DNA of 64,000 nucleotides from Oscillatoria sp. CS-180 (lineage in GTDB: Bacteria > Cyanobacteriota > Cyanobacteriia > Phormidesmidales > Phormidesmidaceae), in NCBI RefSeq assembly GCF_028330965.1, contig NZ_JAQMUB010000037.1, positions 62,001 through 126,000 of the forward strand, written 5' to 3'. Below, piece after piece: positions 13,609-27,339 of this stretch (its first letter is position 1; each line of letters opens with the position of its first letter). The notes under the pieces were generated by a model, which was given only the letters and a program-made list of their open reading frames with translations, was not told the DNA's origin and ran no database searches. A program made the position numbers and the translations under genes.

Positions 13609-14934
13609 ATGACAAATCGATTTGGAAGACGGAAGTTTTTGCTGTATGGATCAGCAACAATGGGCACAGCAATGCTGCTTAAGGCTTGCGGTTCTCCTTC
13701 CGATGAAGCAGCGACTACCGAACCCGCTGAGGACGGGGGGGAAGAGGTTGCAGCGGCCGATAGTGGCGACACTATCAAAGTGGGTATTCTCCACTCCCTC
13801 AGCGGAACAATGGCGATTAGTGAGACTACCGTCGTTGACGCTGAAAAGCTAGCAATCAAGGAAATTAATGAGGCTGGCGGCGTTTTAGGTAGGCAGATTG
13901 AAGCGGTTGAGGAAGACGGCGCTTCTGACTGGCCGACGTTTGCAGAGAAAGCTGAGAAGCTGATCGATCAAGACCAAGTGGCAACCGTCTTCGGCTGCTG
14001 GACATCGGCAAGCCGTAAGGCTGTACTGCCGGTATTCGAGTCCAAAGATCACATGCTTTGGTACCCCGTACAGTACGAAGGGCAAGAGTGCTCGAAGAAC
14101 ATTTTCTACACAGGAGCCGCTCCTAACCAGCAAATTGAGCCTGCTGTAGATTGGCTGCTTGAGAACCGAGGAACTCAGTTCTTCCTAGTGGGTTCAGACT
14201 ACGTTTTCCCTCGTACGGCAAACACCATCATCAAAGAGCAGCTGGCTGCTAAAGGCGGAGAAACAGTTGGCGAAGACTATCTGCCCCTAGGTAACACTGA
14301 GGTCACCCCAATCATCACGAAGATTAGGGCTGCTTTGCCCGATGGTGGCGTTATCTTCAACAGCTTGAACGGTGATAGCAACGTTGCCTTCTTCAAGCAG
14401 CTACAGGGTGCTGGGATGACTCCAGACAAATACCCCGTGATGTCGGTCAGTATTGCGGAAGAGGAAGTGCGCCAGATTGGTGAAGAATTCCTCATTGATC
14501 ACTTGGCAGCTTGGAATTACTTCCAGACTGTTGAGTCCCCCGAGAACGAAAAGTGGGTCGCTGACTTTAAGGCTGAATACGGTGAAGATCGCGTGACGAA
14601 TGATCCCATGGAGGCGGCCTACATCATGGTCTACCTCTGGAAGCAAGCGGTTGAGCAAGCTGGTAGCACTGATATTGCGGCTGTTCGAGAGGCTGCTTAT
14701 GGTCAGACCTTCGCAGCCCCTGAGGGGACAGTCACCATGAATCCGAATCACCATATCTCCAAGACAGTTCGGATTGGTCAGGTTCGGGATGACGGCCTGT
14801 TCAACATCCTTTCTGAGACGGATGGTCCCGTTGATCCCGTTCCTTGGAACCAATATGTCCCCGATACAAAGGGTTTCGCCTGCGACTGGTCTGACCCCGA
14901 GAAGGGCGGTAAGTACGAAGTTGAAGGAGCTTAG
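13609..14934 (+). CDS. urtA: Urea ABC transporter substrate-binding lipoprotein UrtA
   Basis: High-affinity urea receptor, 441 residues. An N-terminal GRRKFLLYG segment and hydrophobic stretch lead to LLKAC, a plausible lipobox with Cys27. A Ser/Glu/Ala-rich tether follows, then the type I periplasmic-binding fold beginning [17 protein letters not shown]. The [15 protein letters not shown] and [12 protein letters not shown] segments are typical of the UrtA/amide-binding family. It is the first gene of urtABCDE, behind the NtcA promoter. It is separated from urtB by 302 bases with a stem-loop, so urtA mRNA may accumulate above the rest, as suits a binding protein. Confidence 0.95.
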
Positions 14935-15236
14935 AACGTAATCGGTTAGCTGGCTTGAGCGATTCAATCACGGCTCAAATATGGATGAGTTTGACCGAGA
15001 CGCAACCTGACGAAGGGGAGAGCGGAACTGCGCCAACAATAGGCAGGTTTCTGTTCTCCTTTTTTCTTGGGTGGCAAATCCGATCTTTTTCAGTAGCCGA
15101 TATGACAGTGTTTTGTACCTATACGGAAGACTGTAGAACAAACGCTGGCGGCGGTATGGTACGACCTCTTTGGTAAGACAAAGGGACCTCGCTGATATAG
15201 ACCAGTGAATCATTTGGATTCATAAGCTATGGGCTG
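14935..15236. other. urtA-urtB intercistronic region
   Basis: Holds a stem-loop at 14955-14978 (outer arms TTGAGC and GCTCAA, inner GATT/AATC) shortly after the urtA stop, and a pyrimidine-rich stretch near 15050-15085. No gene was recognised. It probably attenuates or processes the polycistronic mRNA. Confidence 0.5.
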
Positions 15237-16472
15237 TTGGATACACCGTTGGGGCAAGCGATCGCTCAGAGCACATTTCAAAAAAACACAGGTAATGGCG
15301 TGATTGAAGGACTGATTAACGGCTTATTTAATGGGATCAGCATTGGAGCCGTGCTACTGATCGTAGCGCTGGGGTTGGCAATCGTATTTGGCCTGATGGG
15401 AGTCATCAACTTGGCTCACGGAGAGCTGATGATGCTAGGGGCTTATACAACCTATGTGGTCCAAAACGGAGCCAAGGCAATAGGTAGCGGAGCCTTGGAG
15501 TTCTATATTTTTGCGGCGCTACCGCTATCGTTTCTGGTAGCTGCTTTAGTGGGGCTGGCGCTAGAACGCGGCGTTATTCGCCATCTCTATGGTCGTCCCC
15601 TGGAAACACTCCTGGCGACGTGGGGCGTTAGTTTAATCCTGCGGCAGTTTGTGCGCAGCGTGAACTGGGCCATGATCGCTGGACTAATCGTTTTTTGCGT
15701 TCTGTTCTTTGGGGGACGCTGGGTTTTACAACAGCAGTCCAATTGGGAACGAATGCGTCGGGTGGCTAACCCAGTCATTCTCATGCTGTCGAGCGCGATC
15801 GCGCTTATCACGGGACTGCTGCTGAATCAAAATGGCGGTGCAGCATTGAGTAAAGCTTGGTTTAGTGCTCGCAATGTGGATGTCACCGCTCCGAGCTGGC
15901 TGCGAGGAGGGCTTTCCATTGGCACCACTCTTCAGTTTCCCTACGCTCGACTTTTCATCATTGCCTTGACAGTAATTTGTCTCATTGGGGTCTATTGGTT
16001 TCTGAACGGTACGGCTTGGGGGCTTCGCATTCGATCCGTCACCCAAAACCGGACAATGAGTGCTTGCCTCGGAATTCCAACTGATCGAGTCGATGCCCTG
16101 ACCTTTGCCCTAGGGTCTGGATTGGCTGGTATCGCTGGCTGCGCAGTTACGCTGTTGGGATCCGTTGGCCCTAATCTAGGCGGCAACTATATTGTGGACG
16201 CCTTCATGGTGGTGGTGGTTGGCGGTGTCGGAAAACTCGTTGGCAGCATTGTGGCAGCGCTGGTTATTGGCATCATCACTTATTTGCTGGGGTCTGGAAC
16301 CCTAGCGCTCTTACTGCCTCCTACCGAAGGACTTCAGCCCGTTGTAGACTTCTTTACATTTTTCGCGACCACCAGCATGGCAAAAGTCATGGTCTTTGCC
16401 TTAATCATCGCCTTTTTGCAATGGAAACCTGCCGGGATGTTTCCGCAAAAAGGTCGGACGGTGGAGGCGTAA
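15237..16472 (+). CDS. urtB: Urea ABC transporter permease UrtB
   Basis: Inner-membrane permease of the LivH/UrtB class, 411 residues as given. The conserved core begins LINGLFNGISIGAVLLIVALGLAIVFGLMGVINLAHGELMMLGAY, which is diagnostic. A second family block is GTAWGLRIRSVTQNRTMSACLG, the cytoplasmic loop contacting the ATPases. The first start in frame is TTG at 15237; a GTG at 15300, close to the conserved core, is an equally good candidate. A stretch of about 50 residues around 145-200 is longer than in LivH. It works with UrtC, UrtD and UrtE. Confidence 0.93.
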   Translation: MDTPLGQAIAQSTFQKNTGNGVIEGLINGLFNGISIGAVLLIVALGLAIVFGLMGVINLAHGELMMLGAYTTYVVQNGAKAIGSGALEFYIFAALPLSFLVAALVGLALERGVIRHLYGRPLETLLATWGVSLILRQFVRSVNWAMIAGLIVFCVLFFGGRWVLQQQSNWERMRRVANPVILMLSSAIALITGLLLNQNGGAALSKAWFSARNVDVTAPSWLRGGLSIGTTLQFPYARLFIIALTVICLIGVYWFLNGTAWGLRIRSVTQNRTMSACLGIPTDRVDALTFALGSGLAGIAGCAVTLLGSVGPNLGGNYIVDAFMVVVVGGVGKLVGSIVAALVIGIITYLLGSGTLALLLPPTEGLQPVVDFFTFFATTSMAKVMVFALIIAFLQWKPAGMFPQKGRTVEA

Positions 16473-16481
16473 ACAACAGCT

Positions 16482-17645
16482 ATGGTTATAGAAGCACCCG
16501 TTCAACCTCGTAAAGAAGCACAGGCGCAGAAATCTCGTCGGCGCACTTTGGAAATTGCTGCTATTGTCGCCTTTGTGGTGTTGCTCGTCGTTGTCATGCC
16601 GCTGCTTTTGAGTGGTTTTCGACTAGGTCTTTTAGGGCGGTTTTTATCGCTTGCGATCGTAGCTTTGGGGATCGACTTAATCTGGGGCTTTACAGGTCTC
16701 TTGAGTTTGGGTCACGGCATTTTCTTTGCCTTGGGGGGCTATGCCTTTGCCATGTTCCTTCAGCTCAACAGCTTAAGCGAAGGTCAGATTCCCGAATTCT
16801 TTGGTCTCTACGGCGTATCGGAACTTCCATGGTTCTGGAAACCGTTTTACTCATTGCCGTTTACCCTCATTGCCATTTTTACAATCCCAGCCCTCATTGC
16901 TGGCCTGTTGGGCTATCTAGTCTTTCGAAATCGAATTCGAGGAGTTTACTTTTCCATCCTGACTCAAGCTGCGCTGGTTGTGTTTTTCAACCTGTTTAAC
17001 GGTCAGCAGAAGTGGATTAATGGCACTAACGGATTGAAGACAGACACCAGTATTTTTCTAGGGCAACAAGTGGGCAGTGGGTCCATGCAAATGGTGTTTT
17101 ATCTGACTACCGTGGCCATGCTGGTGCTCATGTATTTGCTGTGCCGCTGGTTAACAAGTGGGCGCTTTGGTCGCCTGCTGGTTGCCATTCGAGACGACGA
17201 AAACCGAGTTCGTTTCTCGGGGTATGATCCCACGGGTTTTAAGGTATTGGTGTTCGCCGTATCAGGCGCGATCGCAGGTATTGCTGGCGCTCTGTATACG
17301 GTGCAATCCGGCATTGTGTCTCCCCAGTTTATGGACATCGCTTTCTCTATTGAGATGGTGATTTGGGTGGCGGTGGGAGGACGAGCCACACTGGTCGGTG
17401 CCATCCTCGGTGCCCTACTTGTTAACTGGGCACGGGCGCTTCTCAGTGAAAGCTTTCCAGAGGTTTGGCTCTTCTTCCAAGGAGCTTTGTTTCTGCTGGT
17501 CGTCACTGCTCTGCCAGACGGCATTGTGGGTTGGCTCCGTAAACAGAGCCTTGGGCGATCGCGGTTGGGTAAACCAGAATCTTTGCTCACCTATCCCCAA
17601 GTTGAACTCGATCCCGACATTCAAAAGGAAAGGGACACCCTTTAG
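16482..17645 (+). CDS. urtC: Urea ABC transporter permease UrtC
   Basis: Second permease, LivM/UrtC class, 387 residues. Residues 1-20 are polar and basic. The membrane domain then shows the family block GIDLIWGFTGLLSLGHGIFFALGGYAFAMF and the cytoplasmic RLLVAIRDDENRVRFSGYD loop. ATG at 16482, 9 bases after the urtB stop. The gap to urtD is 189 bases. Confidence 0.95.
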   Translation: MVIEAPVQPRKEAQAQKSRRRTLEIAAIVAFVVLLVVVMPLLLSGFRLGLLGRFLSLAIVALGIDLIWGFTGLLSLGHGIFFALGGYAFAMFLQLNSLSEGQIPEFFGLYGVSELPWFWKPFYSLPFTLIAIFTIPALIAGLLGYLVFRNRIRGVYFSILTQAALVVFFNLFNGQQKWINGTNGLKTDTSIFLGQQVGSGSMQMVFYLTTVAMLVLMYLLCRWLTSGRFGRLLVAIRDDENRVRFSGYDPTGFKVLVFAVSGAIAGIAGALYTVQSGIVSPQFMDIAFSIEMVIWVAVGGRATLVGAILGALLVNWARALLSESFPEVWLFFQGALFLLVVTALPDGIVGWLRKQSLGRSRLGKPESLLTYPQVELDPDIQKERDTL

Positions 17646-17834
17646 CGCGATCCCTCGGCCTTGTCTATCAGCGAGATGCCGCAGGAAGGATGATGCGACC
17701 CAAATAGTGAAATTTTTCTCCTCTACTTTTAGCGAGCACAATTGAAAACGCTAAGCCTCCATCAAACTAGGAACTGACTCAACTTTTGCCTTCTGTTTTC
17801 TGCTATAAACACTCACCTATCTGACCCAATCTCC

Positions 17835-18950
17835 ATGACGGCTCTTCTTGAAATCGAAAACGTCACCGTTAGTTTTGACGGATTCAAAGCCCTTAATGAC
17901 CTCAACTTCTCGATGAATGCGGGTGAACTGCGCGTCATCATCGGCCCTAACGGTGCTGGCAAAACCACCTTCTTAGATGTCATTACGGGCAAAGTTCAGC
18001 CGACAAGCGGCCAAGCCCGCTTCAAAGGCAAAAACTTGAAAAAACACGCCGAACATACGATTGCTCGTTTCGGCATTGGTCGTAAGTTTCAAACCCCGCG
18101 TGTTTATCTCAATCTCACTCCCCGAGAAAATCTGGAACTGTCCTGTAATCGCAACAAGAATGTCTTCGCGACTCTTTTTAAGAAGACTCCCACAGCTGAG
18201 AAACGAACGGTCGGGGGACTATTAGAGACCATCGGTCTAGACCACAAAGCTGATATGCCTGCCGAGCTACTTTCTCACGGAGAGAAGCAATGGCTCGAAA
18301 TCGGCATGTTAGTCGCTCAGTCCCCCGACTTACTTCTGGTTGATGAACCCGTTGCCGGACTAACCGACGAAGAAACCGAACAAACGGGTAATCTGCTGAT
18401 GTCTCTAGCTGAGAGCCATTCCATCATCGTGATTGAGCACGACATGGAGTTTGTGAGACAGATTGCTCGGCAGGTCACCGTACTGCATGAAGGTTCGGTG
18501 CTCTGCGAAGGCACGATGGATGAGGTACAAAACGATCCGCGCGTAATTGAGGTTTATCTCGGCCAAGAAACCAGTATTACTCCAGAGCAACTACTGCTGC
18601 TGAGAATCACCGCTACGATGGCCTGGGCAGACGGTTCGTTTGATTCGGCCGAGCAAAGCCTGATTTTAGATCAGCTGAGCCGGAAGTTTGCCCACACACC
18701 GGAAGAACAAGCTCCGTTGAAAGAAGAACTCAGTAATTTGTTGGCCAAAAAGATTCCTCTGGAGGAGCTCGTCCCTCAATTGACATCGGATGCTCAGAGG
18801 GAGCAGACACTCCTATTGAGCTATGAAGTCATTCGCTCTAATGGCATCAACAAAGCAGAAGCGGCCTCATATCAACAGCTTGTCTCTTTGCTGAATCTGC
18901 CACCTGACATCGTGAATCGACTAGAAGCCACTACTGTGGAGACCTTTTAA
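17835..18950 (+). CDS. urtD: Urea ABC transporter ATPase UrtD with C-terminal TerB-like domain
   Basis: Residues 1-248 are a complete LivG/UrtD ATPase: Walker A GPNGAGKTT (37-45), a signature written LSHGE (146-150) as is usual for UrtD, Walker B LLLVDEP (166-172) and H-loop EHD (201-203). Residues about 250-365 form a separate helical domain. It opens LLLLRITATMAWADGSFDSAEQ, which resembles the TerB/DUF533 family (AxADGxxxxxE). Ordinary UrtD ends near 250 residues, so this is a fusion. The frame is continuous and urtE starts two bases after the stop, so the extension is genuine. The role of the added domain is unknown; regulation or assembly is an inference. Confidence 0.92.
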   Translation: MTALLEIENVTVSFDGFKALNDLNFSMNAGELRVIIGPNGAGKTTFLDVITGKVQPTSGQARFKGKNLKKHAEHTIARFGIGRKFQTPRVYLNLTPRENLELSCNRNKNVFATLFKKTPTAEKRTVGGLLETIGLDHKADMPAELLSHGEKQWLEIGMLVAQSPDLLLVDEPVAGLTDEETEQTGNLLMSLAESHSIIVIEHDMEFVRQIARQVTVLHEGSVLCEGTMDEVQNDPRVIEVYLGQETSITPEQLLLLRITATMAWADGSFDSAEQSLILDQLSRKFAHTPEEQAPLKEELSNLLAKKIPLEELVPQLTSDAQREQTLLLSYEVIRSNGINKAEAASYQQLVSLLNLPPDIVNRLEATTVETF

Positions 18951-18952
18951 GC

Positions 18953-19705
18953 ATGACTCAAGCGATCGCCTCCCCCGTTGATTCCACCGCCGCTACGGTG
19001 CCGATGCTCAAAATTTCTGGACTCAATTTCTTTTATGGAGAAAGTCATATCCTGCGTGATGTAGATATGACAGTACCCAAAGGAAAAATGGTTTGTCTGA
19101 TTGGCCGTAACGGCGTCGGTAAGACGACCCTTTTAAACAATGTCATGGGCTTACTGTCTCCTCGTACGGGGAATATCCACTATGAAGGGCAGCCTATTCT
19201 CAAATTCTCTGCCGACAAGCGAGCTCGAATGGGCATTGGCTACGTTCCCCAAGGCCGTGAGATTATTCCTCGTCTAACCGTTAAAGAGAACTTGATTATT
19301 GGACAAGAGGCACTTGGCGATCGCGGCAAAAAGTCAACGACGATTCCCGACGAAATCTTCGAGCTTTTCCCCGTCCTCAAAACTATGCTGAGCCGGATGG
19401 GAGGCGACCTTAGTGGAGGACAACAACAGCAGCTAGCGATCGCCCGTGCCCTGATGAGTCGACCAAAACTCCTCGTCCTGGATGAACCGACCGAAGGCAT
19501 TCAGCCATCCATCATTTTGGATATTGAGTCTGCCGTTCGCCGCATCATTCAAACAACTGGCATTTCTGTACTGCTAGTTGAACAACACCTACACTTCGTT
19601 CGCCAAGCTGATTTCTATTACGCCATGCAAAAAGGCGGAATTGTTGCCTCTGGAGCAACATCTGAACTCAGCAATGCCGTTATTCAGGAATTTCTGGCAG
19701 TGTAA
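18953..19705 (+). CDS. urtE: Urea ABC transporter ATPase UrtE
   Basis: LivF/UrtE ATPase, 250 residues. It carries Walker A GRNGVGKTT, the UrtE-type YVPQGREIIPRLTVKENL Q-loop region, signature LSGGQQQQLAIARAL, Walker B LLVLDEP and the EGIQPSII segment. The start lies two bases after the urtD stop, so translation is probably coupled. It pairs with UrtD to drive urea import and is the last gene of the operon; the next gene is convergent. Confidence 0.96.
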   Translation: MTQAIASPVDSTAATVPMLKISGLNFFYGESHILRDVDMTVPKGKMVCLIGRNGVGKTTLLNNVMGLLSPRTGNIHYEGQPILKFSADKRARMGIGYVPQGREIIPRLTVKENLIIGQEALGDRGKKSTTIPDEIFELFPVLKTMLSRMGGDLSGGQQQQLAIARALMSRPKLLVLDEPTEGIQPSIILDIESAVRRIIQTTGISVLLVEQHLHFVRQADFYYAMQKGGIVASGATSELSNAVIQEFLAV

Positions 19706-22790: not shown

Positions 22791-22871
22791 TAGAAGGCTC
22801 AATCGAAAACTGCCTTAGTCTTTGCTCAACTATTCCTGAACTCTACTGACTTTGCATCTTCGAAAGGATTG

Positions 22872-23687
22872 ATGAAGAAAAAGTTATCAGACATCAACCG
22901 ACTCCACCAAGAACAGTTGGTTCACATAGGGCGGATTCTGCAAGAAACTCGTGAGGCACAGGGCCTGTCTCACAAAGATCTAGCTGCCAAAACGTTAATT
23001 CGTTCTAGCCTTCTGCAAGCCATCGAAACGGCCAACATTGATCAGCTTCCAGAACCGGTCTATACGCGCGGGCTGATTCTTCGCTACGGCGACAGTTTAG
23101 GACTAGATGGCGAAGCACTTGCCATCCAATACTTTACGCCCGCTGATAGGCGTCCCTCTCGCTCTTTCTGGCGCATTCCTGTTACACCTCAGCTACGTCC
23201 GGTTCACCTCTATTTGACCTACGTCGTGTTGATTGGGGTTGCCATTAGCGCCCTGTCTTACACACTGCAGCGGATGTCCTATCAAACCAGTACGCTACCC
23301 GTCTTGGAAGGGGAAATTGCTGAAGATGCCACTATGCCGGAAGCGGGGCCTGGTACTGACAGCGAGAACCCGCCAAACAACTCTCAGCAGTCAGGCACGG
23401 AGTTGCCTCCTGAGGTAGCAGGGTCACCTGTACGGGTTGCTGTGGAATTGCAGGGGCAATCTTGGTTGCGTGTCACTGCGGACGGGGAAGTTGCTTTTGA
23501 AGGAATCTTAAAGGAAGGGGATTCTAAAATCTGGACAGCTGAGGAGCAGCTGAGGATCCGAGCAGGCAATGCAGGCGGTGTCATAGTGTCCTTTAATGAA
23601 GGAACGTCTAAGCAATTAGGACAGCCGGGCATGGTAGCCGAAGCCGTCTATCCTCCTCCTAATACGGCTCGTCTCAACCAACCCTAA
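22872..23687 (+). CDS. RodZ-like membrane protein (HTH_25 and DUF4115)
   Basis: 271 residues in RodZ layout. A cytoplasmic helix-turn-helix (about 15-90, GRILQETREAQGLSHKDLA and PEPVYTRGLILRYG) is followed by one membrane helix (about 115-135). A polar linker leads to a periplasmic beta domain (about 185-265, VELQGQSWLRVTADGEVAFEG). RodZ connects MreB to the elongasome in rod-shaped bacteria. AAGGA sits just before the ATG at 22872; a TTG one codon earlier is ignored. It lies 81 bases after the pseudouridine synthase gene and may share its transcript. Confidence 0.85.
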   Translation: MKKKLSDINRLHQEQLVHIGRILQETREAQGLSHKDLAAKTLIRSSLLQAIETANIDQLPEPVYTRGLILRYGDSLGLDGEALAIQYFTPADRRPSRSFWRIPVTPQLRPVHLYLTYVVLIGVAISALSYTLQRMSYQTSTLPVLEGEIAEDATMPEAGPGTDSENPPNNSQQSGTELPPEVAGSPVRVAVELQGQSWLRVTADGEVAFEGILKEGDSKIWTAEEQLRIRAGNAGGVIVSFNEGTSKQLGQPGMVAEAVYPPPNTARLNQP

Positions 23688-23709: not shown

Positions 23710-24813
23710 TTAATTCGATCGCTGCCACAGGCGAATGACCTCAGTCACCACCTCGCGATCTGGAGGCTGAGTCGTCTCTACTGATGGCTGGAGTTCAACG
23801 CCTGGAATACCTTGCTGCCAAGGACTGTTTGAATTGGCTTGCAGATCGACGTCAGCGTTGGCTGGTCGAAATCCATGCTCTACAAAAACGGCTTGTTGCT
23901 CTGGAGCAAGTAGGAAGTCAATAAACTGACGCCCATTCCTGGCCTCTGCTGCGCTGACATCACGGCGAGCGATCGCAGCTGTTGAAATCGTTTCAATGGT
24001 CGGATCCAAATAGTAGATCTGATACGGCTTCCCCTGCCTTTGGGCAGCTTGGTCCCAACGCAATAGGGCAACACTCTCATAAACCATGGCGATATCGGCG
24101 TCATTGGGTCCCCGCGCAATAAATTCTTGCAGCAGAATATCGGTTGAGCGAGGGGGTTGATAAACTGACTGCTTGACCAAGCCAAACAAATTTTCAATAG
24201 GCGAGGTATTCAAATTAGCCAAGGTAAGGGATTGAGAACCCAGTTTTGCTTGAGACCAAAGCGTCAGTGTGAGCTGACCACTATTAGAGCGCTCCGGATC
24301 CGTCGTCACAAAGTCAAAACTCCCCCACTCGGCATTGCCGCCCAGATCGGACCAGTTACCTTGGCTCACCGCTTCCTCCAGACGAGACCAGCGAAACTGA
24401 TTGTCAGGAAATAATGCCTGTCCCCGCTCAGGCCAGACAACTGCAACCAGCATCGTTTTAGCAACGGGCTGAGGAGCATCATAAAACGGATCCTCACCCG
24501 ACTGAGCTGTCCACCGCTGTGCTAGCTCATCCAGCAATTGCCCGTTCGCAGGAATCAGAACGGTCGGTGTGAAATCGTTTTGGTCATCCACATAGTTATT
24601 CACCATGTCTTGTGATCCCTGAATCTCAATTTTGAGATCGATGTTGGGATTTGCCGCCTCAAACCGCTCTTCTAAGACCGCTAGTGGCTCCTGCAATTCT
24701 GAACCACTAACCACTGTTAGCGTTTGACTAACGCCGGGCAGCGGGGCATAAGCTAGCCCGAGAGAACCGATCGCGATCGCGGTTGAGACGACCATGCGAG
24801 ATGTCTTTTTCAT
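23710..24813 (-). CDS. Extracellular substrate-binding-like protein of the VWA operon
   Basis: 367 residues. A signal peptide (about 1-32, KKTSRM then a hydrophobic stretch and a cleavage-like GVSQT) precedes a type 2 periplasmic-binding fold (LTVVSGSELQEPLAVLEERFEAANP). It shares the rare ERSNSGQL block, an APEQQAVFVEHGFRPAN block and a terminal VVTEVIRLW helix with the binding domain of the VWA lipoprotein encoded upstream. The two are therefore probably paralogues. No ABC permease or ATPase is adjacent. The ATG at 24813 was chosen over an upstream TTG at 24828. Ligand unknown. Confidence 0.8.
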   Translation of the reverse strand: MKKTSRMVVSTAIAIGSLGLAYAPLPGVSQTLTVVSGSELQEPLAVLEERFEAANPNIDLKIEIQGSQDMVNNYVDDQNDFTPTVLIPANGQLLDELAQRWTAQSGEDPFYDAPQPVAKTMLVAVVWPERGQALFPDNQFRWSRLEEAVSQGNWSDLGGNAEWGSFDFVTTDPERSNSGQLTLTLWSQAKLGSQSLTLANLNTSPIENLFGLVKQSVYQPPRSTDILLQEFIARGPNDADIAMVYESVALLRWDQAAQRQGKPYQIYYLDPTIETISTAAIARRDVSAAEARNGRQFIDFLLAPEQQAVFVEHGFRPANADVDLQANSNSPWQQGIPGVELQPSVETTQPPDREVVTEVIRLWQRSN

Positions 24814-24880
24814 CGGCGGTATCTTCAATCCTCTAATACGCTAACTTGTCTCTATTCCAATCCTTTAAGCACTTGTGCCT

Positions 24881-25606
24881 TCAGCTTCCCGTCATCAGCA
24901 CATCCATACTTTCCTGCATGTTGTTCAGCTCTAGTCCCAGTGCTCTCAGTTCATCTGTTTGGTCCGTACTGCCAAGATCAGCAGAGCGCAGCTTGTTCTG
25001 CAACTGTTGCAGGACGCCGCCAGCATCCACAATCAACGTGGACAGGCTGACCACCTGCGCTTCACGGGCATCTTGCCCTTGTTTTGCTAATTCAATGTTG
25101 CGCTCCAGGCTATCGGCCAGTCGCTGCCACTGAGCTTGGGCCACCCCGGAACTTGTCCGCTGCTTGTGTTGGGCTTCCTTAAGTTGCTTTTCTAAATCAT
25201 CAACCGCCAAGAGAGAGCCGCGCCGATGTAGACGCTGAGCTAAGTCATCCAGCTTGTCGGGAAGTTCGCGAGTGCGATCGCAGGCGTATTGAACAATACC
25301 TAATAGTTCAACCTGGCTGGTCTCCGTCAGCAGCTTAATAGACTCAGCCTGCAAGTCGTTGGCTTGAACAGCAAGCTGTGCTGCCCGCTGCTTTGCCTGA
25401 AGCAGTTCCTGTTCAAGATTGGGGTTGTCTAAACCCAACGTCTCTGGTTCTTTTTCTTTGAGAAAAGCTGAACCCGCGATCGCGATCGCGACTGCTCCTG
25501 GTAAGGCAATCATATTAGGTAGCCGTATTAGTCGCACTCCAACAACTAGAAAAAGGCCACCAGCTAGCACTGCAAGGGGATAAGCAAGTGGGTTAGCGAG
25601 TTTCAC
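24881..25606 (-). CDS. Membrane-anchored coiled-coil protein of the VWA operon
   Basis: 241 residues, family not recognised. Two N-terminal hydrophobic segments (about 6-28 and 32-50) are followed by long charged helices with heptad character (NLEQELLQAKQRAAQL, then about 125-235). The layout recalls XpaC-type proteins that accompany TelA in other bacteria, but I see no motif that proves this. The GTG start at 25606 follows a strong GGGAG site. It starts 11 bases after the stop of the VWA lipoprotein gene, so the two are co-transcribed. Confidence 0.75.
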   Translation of the reverse strand: MKLANPLAYPLAVLAGGLFLVVGVRLIRLPNMIALPGAVAIAIAGSAFLKEKEPETLGLDNPNLEQELLQAKQRAAQLAVQANDLQAESIKLLTETSQVELLGIVQYACDRTRELPDKLDDLAQRLHRRGSLLAVDDLEKQLKEAQHKQRTSSGVAQAQWQRLADSLERNIELAKQGQDAREAQVVSLSTLIVDAGGVLQQLQNKLRSADLGSTDQTDELRALGLELNNMQESMDVLMTGS

Positions 25607-25617
25607 AAGTCTCCCTC

Positions 25618-27339
25618 TTAAAACTCCAGTTGAATATCTTGCATGAGGCGGGCGATCGTATCCGGGTCGCCTTTAGCGTAGTAGCCGCCGGTGGATTCAG
25701 CAATTTGGTTCAGAATGTCTGGGTTGAAGTCACCCTCATTACCGTATCCAATCGTGAAAAAAGCAATTCGCTCATCGGTTGAAAAATCGGACTCTTTCAG
25801 CCCAGTCAGGAGATTATTAAGCTGTACATTGGAGCCAGAGTCCTCACCATCCGTAAGGACTAAGACCGCATTGATAGCCCCCTCCCGCAAATTGTTGCGT
25901 AACCAATCTCGCGCATCTAAAGAAGCATCATAGAGACGAGTTCCCCCTCTAGGACGCAAGCTGTTGATAAACTCGTACCCCCGCTGCAATCCCTCTGGGG
26001 AGCCATCAACCATGACTGGAGGCCGAATCTGATCATCAAAGTCGACCAAAGCAATCTGATCTTGGGGACCCAACGTGTCGATGTAAGTCTGGAGCGTGTT
26101 CTGTACAGACGGTAGTTTATTGCCTGACATTGATCCAGAGGAATCTACCACAATGACCACCAGCGAAGGCTTCTTAGCAAACTCAGTCCAAGCCTTAATC
26201 ATCGTCTCCACAACGGCAGCCTCTGGAGGACGATAAGAGTCATAGCTGGCGTTAGGGTCAACTCCAAATTCAGGACTAAATTTACTGCTGAGAGCCACTC
26301 CGGGACTTCCAGGCCGCAATCCTAGCTCGGTCGCTATTGCCTGGGCTTCTGGTTCTTGCAGATAATCCAAAAATTCGGTAGCAGCAGCACGCTCTTGATC
26401 GTTGACCCAAGGTATATCAAGCAAAATCCCTCTCATATTTGAAGTGAATGTTGCTTGAGGATAAACAGCCACGTATTTCGGCTGCCCCGGCTGTAGTTGG
26501 GTGTTCGCAGCAATGACAGAAGACTCATAGACGGATCCGATCGACGCCCAGAATGGACCATTTTGCACCATCGCCTCAGCTAGGGAACTAGTCGAAGTTC
26601 CATACCGAGTAATTTTTTCTTGAATCTTTTGAATATCGGCTTGATGATCAGCAACATCTTGAGCAGTTAGCTCTCCAGGACGTTTGCCTGTAACAGACGC
26701 AAATTGTGCCACCAGCGTCTGTAAGCCTGAGTTTGATCGAGTTGGAGCGGTATGGACGTAGTAGATATTTTGAGGGGGACTGGCAGCATTTAAGTCCTGA
26801 TGAGTTTCAGCCTCTGTCAAGGCAATAAACAAATCGTCAACCGATTCCAAGCTGGAAGCCAAATCCTCTCTGGTCATAAAAACCATCGGGCTGTAGGCCA
26901 CCAGTGGGGCGTCTGTGATTTGAGGAATATAGTTTTGTCCGGGAGCAATTTGCTGCATTTGATAGATCAGCTGGCTATGGTAGATTTCGCCATCGACAGA
27001 GATCAAGGACGGCAGCCCAGCATCATTCTCTGAAATTGCACCAGATTGTAGTAGCTGAGTTTGATTGAGAACTTGGTTGACGACATCACCGCTGCCTGCG
27101 GCGTCACAAACGATATAGAACTGTTCGCCAGACTCTAACGAAGGGGATTGATTGTTGAACCTTTCAGCAGTTTGATCACAAAAATCATGGAGCGCACTGC
27201 CAACCAGTACGTTCACTTCAAATCCTGGGAAATTAGGTGAATCCGCCTCTGAGCTCGTGCCAGAACTATTGCAAGCGGACAGTCCTAGCACGGCCAGAGC
27301 CGCAACAGATAGATTGAATAGGCGATCGCTCATAGTCAT
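25618..27339 (-). CDS. Lipoprotein with substrate-binding and von Willebrand factor A domains
   Basis: 573 residues. The signal peptide ends in the lipobox LSAC (20-23), so the protein is probably lipid-anchored outside the cytoplasmic membrane. A binding-protein-like domain spans about 40-385, with a TRSNSGLQ block and an EAQAIATELGLRPG block. A VWA domain follows (393-570) with an intact MIDAS: DSSGS (Asp399, Ser401, Ser403), Thr467 and Asp497. Fusing a ligand-binding domain to a metal-dependent adhesion domain suggests a surface receptor or scaffold rather than an importer. It is the first gene of the three-gene operon. Start is the ATG at 27339 after GAAGG, or the ATG at 27333. Confidence 0.88.
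   Translation of the reverse strand: MTMSDRLFNLSVAALAVLGLSACNSSGTSSEADSPNFPGFEVNVLVGSALHDFCDQTAERFNNQSPSLESGEQFYIVCDAAGSGDVVNQVLNQTQLLQSGAISENDAGLPSLISVDGEIYHSQLIYQMQQIAPGQNYIPQITDAPLVAYSPMVFMTREDLASSLESVDDLFIALTEAETHQDLNAASPPQNIYYVHTAPTRSNSGLQTLVAQFASVTGKRPGELTAQDVADHQADIQKIQEKITRYGTSTSSLAEAMVQNGPFWASIGSVYESSVIAANTQLQPGQPKYVAVYPQATFTSNMRGILLDIPWVNDQERAAATEFLDYLQEPEAQAIATELGLRPGSPGVALSSKFSPEFGVDPNASYDSYRPPEAAVVETMIKAWTEFAKKPSLVVIVVDSSGSMSGNKLPSVQNTLQTYIDTLGPQDQIALVDFDDQIRPPVMVDGSPEGLQRGYEFINSLRPRGGTRLYDASLDARDWLRNNLREGAINAVLVLTDGEDSGSNVQLNNLLTGLKESDFSTDERIAFFTIGYGNEGDFNPDILNQIAESTGGYYAKGDPDTIARLMQDIQLEF

Follow-up and report, generated by a model that had tools for sequence, protein, structure and literature searches.

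What does a three-gene operon do that encodes two periplasmic-binding-like clamshells, one of them fused to a VWA domain, and a membrane protein between them? The question is raised by a stretch of 64,000 nucleotides from Oscillatoria sp. CS-180 (contig NZ_JAQMUB010000037.1, positions 62,001 to 126,000; hereafter the window), in which three genes follow one another on the - strand, at the coordinates that an initial annotation had given and that the open reading frames (ORFs) of the window confirmed. Gene A (25618..27339; ORF list, Pfam, alignment and structural model) encodes a 573-residue lipoprotein in which a substrate-binding protein (SBP) domain precedes a VWA domain. Gene B (24881..25606; ORF list, Pfam scan and model) starts with GTG, 11 bp from A, and encodes a predicted membrane helical protein of 241 residues. 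Gene C (23710..24828; ORF list, Pfam and hhalign) starts with TTG, 52 bp from B, and encodes a 372-residue paralogue of the clamshell of A. The account we favour, to which we give about an even chance, is that the three proteins make up a single complex in the envelope, whose task is to sense a small solute and not to import it.

The genes are inherited together. In a sample of 244 genomes of the phylum, A was found in 19 (E<=1e-20), C in 19 (E<=1e-30) and B in 21 (E<=1e-5); the three cut-offs are not the same, and one genome, G034, has a distant A and a distant C that score below them. A, C and full-length B occupy the identical 19 genomes. The two extra matches to B (G147 and G183) are partial and carry several stop codons; in G183 a fragment of C persists in operon order and no A was found within the 14 kb taken, suggesting that an entire operon has decayed. 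All three genes are missing from genome G170, of the same genus in the sample, and G085 and G241, which belong to one genus, have all three in unlinked positions. Because A, full-length B and C co-occur in the same genomes, the trio is kept or lost together and looks like one functional unit, not a chance juxtaposition. Frame breaks and operon decay were also seen within a single family (f6), which includes the stop-bearing partial B of G147 and G183 and, in G237, an A and a C that are both split between two frames (L073, L074, L048).

Gene order tells a similar story. Besides the window, A, B and C form one block on one strand in 18 of 24 related loci, and A and B are adjacent in 20. No other gene cluster, of transporters or anything else, lies near the trio in >9/25 loci, a count for which flanks were short in some loci (L010, L048) and in which permease partners elsewhere in the genomes were not sought. 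The gene-neighbourhood survey called for in the initial annotation, in which a scattered trio would have spoken against its proposal, thus found a conserved unit. Gaps within blocks are mostly <150 bp, reaching 641 bp in L036, and in L008 and L048 genes are broken across two frames. Of the exceptions, L010 has A-B with no C alongside, L047 has A-B with a divergent C next door, and four loci have A alone. For two of these four (L044 of G241 and L046 of G085), B and C lie elsewhere in the genome; the genome of a third (L011, a metagenome assembly) has no B, and its sole match to the C profile is the clamshell of A itself. Pairwise distances in 18 loci correlate between A and C (0.94), B and C (0.88) and A and B (0.84). 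Ratios of nonsynonymous to synonymous substitution (dN/dS) of 0.057-0.104 for A (5 pairs), 0.054-0.224 for B (4 pairs) and 0.068-0.203 for C (4 pairs) indicate purifying selection, one further pair per gene being saturated. The alignments used for counts comprised, for A (A2), all loci except L008, in which the match of the ORF stops at residue 547, and L048, where A is in two frames; for C (A3), all except L008, L010, L011, L012, L044, L046 and L048; and for B (A1), all loci with an adjacent B, including L008, in which roughly the first 60 residues of B are frame-shifted. A further set (A8) held 11 of the 25 A proteins.

Protein A had been described as a lipobox-anchored fusion of a binding protein and a VWA domain with an intact metal ion-dependent adhesion site (MIDAS), and this description stands. 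Pfam recognised SBP_bac_8 (3.2e-26) and VWA (9.3e-14), and no further domain, in an arrangement of lipobox Cys23, clamshell (residues ~38-390) and VWA (~390-573) that makes A an SBP-VWA protein, with SBP then VWA in a single exported chain. C23 is invariant in all 23 aligned A proteins. The five MIDAS residues, D399, S401, S403, T467 and D497 (DxSxS ... T ... D), are present in the window's A, and the site is intact in 21 of the 23 aligned proteins, the window included, and in 7/7 distant ones. In the model of A (mean predicted local distance difference test, pLDDT, 87.7), the predicted clamshell is closest to the sulfate-binding protein (Sbp) 5um2 (Z 26.6, root-mean-square deviation (rmsd) 3.8, 299 residues aligned) and the predicted VWA domain to inter-alpha-inhibitor heavy chain H4 (9c4f_I; Z 22.4, rmsd 2.2, 176 aligned). 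Among the solved VWA structures nearest to it, many come from extracellular proteins of animals and parasites. Two other cysteines of A, C54 and C78, are invariant and could form a disulfide.

Both MIDAS exceptions are solitary copies of A from Moorena (L012:7974-9689 and L011:7974-9689), with D changed to N and T to N, and they probably represent one event in one genus. These copies have a remnant of C nearby, and their dN/dS of 0.25 exceeds the 0.06-0.10 of five other pairs. Moorena bouillonii (the L012 genome) also has a second A, B, C locus (L075:3423-7278), with one in-frame stop each in A and B and none in C. As this other locus is broken too, the Moorena pattern is as compatible with the system being lost as with the metal site having a special role.

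Protein C matches SBP_bac_11 in Pfam (2.9e-20), and Pfam, profile and structure comparisons place both A and C in the ABC (ATP-binding cassette)-type SBP fold. The profile of C is nearest, weakly, to the molybdate/tungstate-binding proteins ModA/WtpA (best E 7.6e-8; individually, no stretch passed), and a sugar-binding protein is likewise among its matches. Aligned with the clamshell of A by hhalign, C matches end to end (319 columns, 98.8%, E 1e-16); the two have a common proline and tryptophan tail, which in A runs directly into the VWA domain, and C ends at the point where the VWA of A starts. On this sequence evidence the A clamshell and C are paralogues. Four motifs are conserved in A and C alike, namely G(S/T)xL at the start (GSxL in A) and the loops GS(G/Q)D, SNSG and YES, all of which may line a ligand pocket. 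No match to the sulfate-binding protein family was found in the window's own genome, and profile alignments to solved Sbp covered only a C-terminal part, so that mapping of the pocket onto Sbp was dropped; for these reasons the assignment of SNSG as a ligand loop remains an inference. C had been called a secreted paralogue of the binding domain. The paralogy holds (E 1e-16, SNSG loop, common tail), whereas "secreted" is less secure: with a single hydrophobic segment at its N terminus and without a lipobox cysteine, C is at least as likely to be membrane-anchored as secreted. A and C belong to the same fold class as ModA/WtpA and the sulfate-binding proteins, but differ from those systems in that the trio is a unit without permease or ATPase, its clamshells being fused to or paired with a VWA domain.

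For B, the model predicts helices at residues 10-26 and 31-52, which would form a membrane hairpin, followed by seven helices within residues 62-238 (mean pLDDT 84.4). The earlier picture of a two-helix membrane coiled coil is thus kept for the two predicted N-terminal membrane helices, but a hairpin with a seven-helix bundle describes the protein better than a plain coiled coil. Pfam found no family above cut-off in B; in a scan of all 21 aligned B proteins no family was matched by more than one member, and XpaC was matched by 0/21 at E<=0.1. IncA, which heads the PDB matches (Z 14.6, rmsd 2.5, 136 aligned), was not taken as a relative, since such a score is about the typical best Z of helical models without a clear match. 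One cysteine of B, C109, is invariant.

The trio had been compared with modules of the XpaC/TelA kind, and related SBP-VWA loci from further afield show what in this comparison is sound. Seven such loci were picked rather than sampled: five (H1-H5) from 19 plasmid hits, G034 through TelA/XpaC, and Sphaerotilus through TelA. A is homologous to their SBP-VWA proteins (E 1.9e-61), with 22-31% identity for the five plasmid hits. A small, N-terminally hydrophobic protein is encoded directly downstream of A in 6/7 loci; by a simple hydropathy threshold it has two hydrophobic segments in Miltoncostaea, Variovorax and Deinococcus and one in Streptomyces, Sphaerotilus and G034, while the third protein of Thiodictyon has none. 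A second SBP occurs in 5/7 loci; Pfam recognises only that of Thiodictyon, and the other four, which rest on their match to the C profile, make up alignment A5, from which the Thiodictyon protein was left out. Homology also links C (98.2%, E 5e-14) to four SBPs from related operons, and TelA is present in three of these cases. TelA is present in 3/7 loci, and in 1/5 of the top hits taken irrespective of it.

A parallel in layout is G034 (locus L063), from the same phylum and another class, where the order is A-XpaC-C-TelA: the A-B-C of the window with XpaC at the place of B and TelA added. Variovorax and Sphaerotilus have the order SBP-TelA-A-2TM, in which 2TM denotes a protein with two transmembrane segments. 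XpaC is like B, with its predicted N-terminal helices, in being hydrophobic at the N terminus (one or two segments in 3/4 of the sequences used), whereas by profile the trio's carriers lack both the TelA and the XpaC of XpaC/TelA (YaaN) operons. Proteins annotated by NCBI as "substrate-binding and VWA domain-containing protein" (Streptomyces, Variovorax) have the same fusion, an intact MIDAS and the small downstream gene, but the downstream proteins there are without similarity to B. The trio thus resembles the XpaC/TelA layout in position and topology, while membership is not supported. The best reading is that it would be a TelA-less variant of an SBP-VWA / 2TM / SBP / (TelA) layout.

Elsewhere, XpaC and TelA genes have been linked with envelope stress: disruption of Listeria lmo1967 (TelA), as cited in PMC12791056, gave greater sensitivity to nisin and tellurite, and in PMC3139573, which deals with the CesSR system for envelope stress in Lactococcus, a table gives 10.3 for an XpaC-like gene and 3.44 for telA1. 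Among the matches listed from the open-licence literature, none was a paper on the trio or on an SBP-VWA/TelA operon. The IncP kla (tellurium resistance) operon of plasmid pG527 has a TelA protein (KlaB) and was considered as the same kit, but KlaA is TelA-like and KlaC TrbC-like, and neither SBP nor VWA is among them. On Vibrio plasmid pSEA2 (L083:1-7713), TelA stands in a row of genes together with an ABC permease, a VWA gene, an SBP/OmpA gene and several SBP genes.

How might such a complex work? The ligand, a small and perhaps anionic molecule, would be bound outside the inner membrane by A, lipid-anchored, and C, anchored at its N terminus. In VWA proteins such as calcium-channel alpha2-delta, the MIDAS metal coordinates an acidic side chain of the partner, and the metal of A could then dock in this way to C, B or another target. 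Alpha2-delta and inter-alpha-inhibitor have extracellular VWA domains and are among the closest solved relatives of that of A; they are animal proteins, and we use them as an analogy for the docking step only. B might pass the state on, from the operon place that XpaC occupies in the TelA operon of G034. A likely role would be envelope stress or solute surveillance. Two gene settings are consistent with an envelope or sensing context: in G085 and G241 the unlinked C is wedged on the same strand between genes for FtsW/RodA and a CHASE2-Ser/Thr kinase (L077:4540-8930 and L079:4515-8923; gaps of 25 bp after FtsW and 4 bp before the kinase), and in Cyanothece sp. SIO2G6 a PspA/IM30 gene lies directly upstream of A-B (L010:507-1169). 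More tentatively, and on the unlikely side, the trio could represent a novel receptor class in which two outside clamshells, one bearing a VWA domain, close on ligand and so switch metal-dependent docking at the MIDAS, with B signalling inward to cell-wall or kinase machinery and with neither transporter nor TelA involved.

Several observations weigh against a solute-sensing, TelA-less complex. The PspA neighbour is a single case and the FtsW/CHASE2 setting is confined to one genus. The MIDAS changes in Moorena may be plain decay. Compared in pairs, the A, B and C trees have only 11, 7 and 8 of 15 splits in common, with some well-supported conflicts. At E<=1e-3, TelA (PF05816) and XpaC (PF10112) were each found in 0/19 carriers. 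By hhalign B scored 0.5% against XpaC, whose profile is thin (4 sequences), and 0.1% against the 2TM partners of Variovorax, Deinococcus and Sphaerotilus; its profile reached at best E 0.029 against 12 entries (the five distant partners plus the members of A4 and A7, two of them doubled). On these values B has no detectable homology to XpaC or to another such 2TM partner, and it was not assigned to either. Finally, a full ABC operon (binding protein, two permeases, two ATPases) occupies 13609-19705 of the window on the + strand, ~4 kb beyond C. The statement that no permease or ATPase is present is hence right for the trio itself and not for its surroundings. By its look this operon is of the urea/branched-chain type, and urease-accessory-like genes precede it.

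In an alternative view, A and C serve an ABC importer as its binding proteins, with the permease and ATPase encoded at another place and with B and the VWA domain as accessories. Their ABC-type folds, A nearest Sbp and C weakly nearest the molybdate/tungstate-binding proteins, agree with it, as do the unlinked B gene of G241, which adjoins a gene for the CbiQ transporter, and the nearby ABC operon of the window, which has a binding protein of its own. We consider an importer unlikely, because the limit of 9/25 loci for neighbours applies to transporters as to all other genes, B is retained as strictly as the binding proteins, and the C flanked by FtsW and the CHASE2 kinase in one genus has no permease beside it. 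Still less probable, in our judgement, is a true member of the TelA/XpaC tellurite or envelope-stress systems that lost TelA and whose XpaC diverged beyond recognition into B. G034 has the same kinds of parts in the same order, and the homologies of A and C to proteins of those operons point the same way; the match of C is unspecific, though, and since C is at least as close to the A clamshell as to those SBPs, it leaves membership undecided, whereas the mismatch between B and XpaC and the lack of TelA in the carriers speak against it.

A surface adhesin or matrix-binding complex acting through the MIDAS, with clamshells that hold a fixed cofactor, seems very doubtful. It would account for a VWA domain with an intact MIDAS on a lipoprotein and for the extracellular character of many of its solved relatives, but the conservation of both clamshells and of their loop motifs favours solute binding, and Pfam found no other domain in A. 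Returning to the solute-sensing complex, we conclude that the trio is a variant of a poorly described kind of system. To our knowledge, the working of TelA/XpaC and SBP-VWA proteins is unclear; a co-inherited trio that lacks TelA narrows the minimal unit to two clamshells, one MIDAS and one membrane helical protein, and gives B a functional context despite its having no Pfam family.

Other searches concerned origin and surroundings. None of A, B and C matched the anti-phage defence families of PADLOC-DB 2.0.0 at E<=0.01. A viral origin was rejected, as 19 pattern matches in viral contigs included 0 coding for a relative; phage records gave one match (residues 288-552, 27%). A scan for promoter-like sites returned 2 (4.0 expected) and for terminator-like sites 7 (4.8 expected), and was not used. 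Convergent with the end of the operon, at 22869-23687 of the window, lies a gene for a RodZ-like protein (HTH_25 and RodZ_C).

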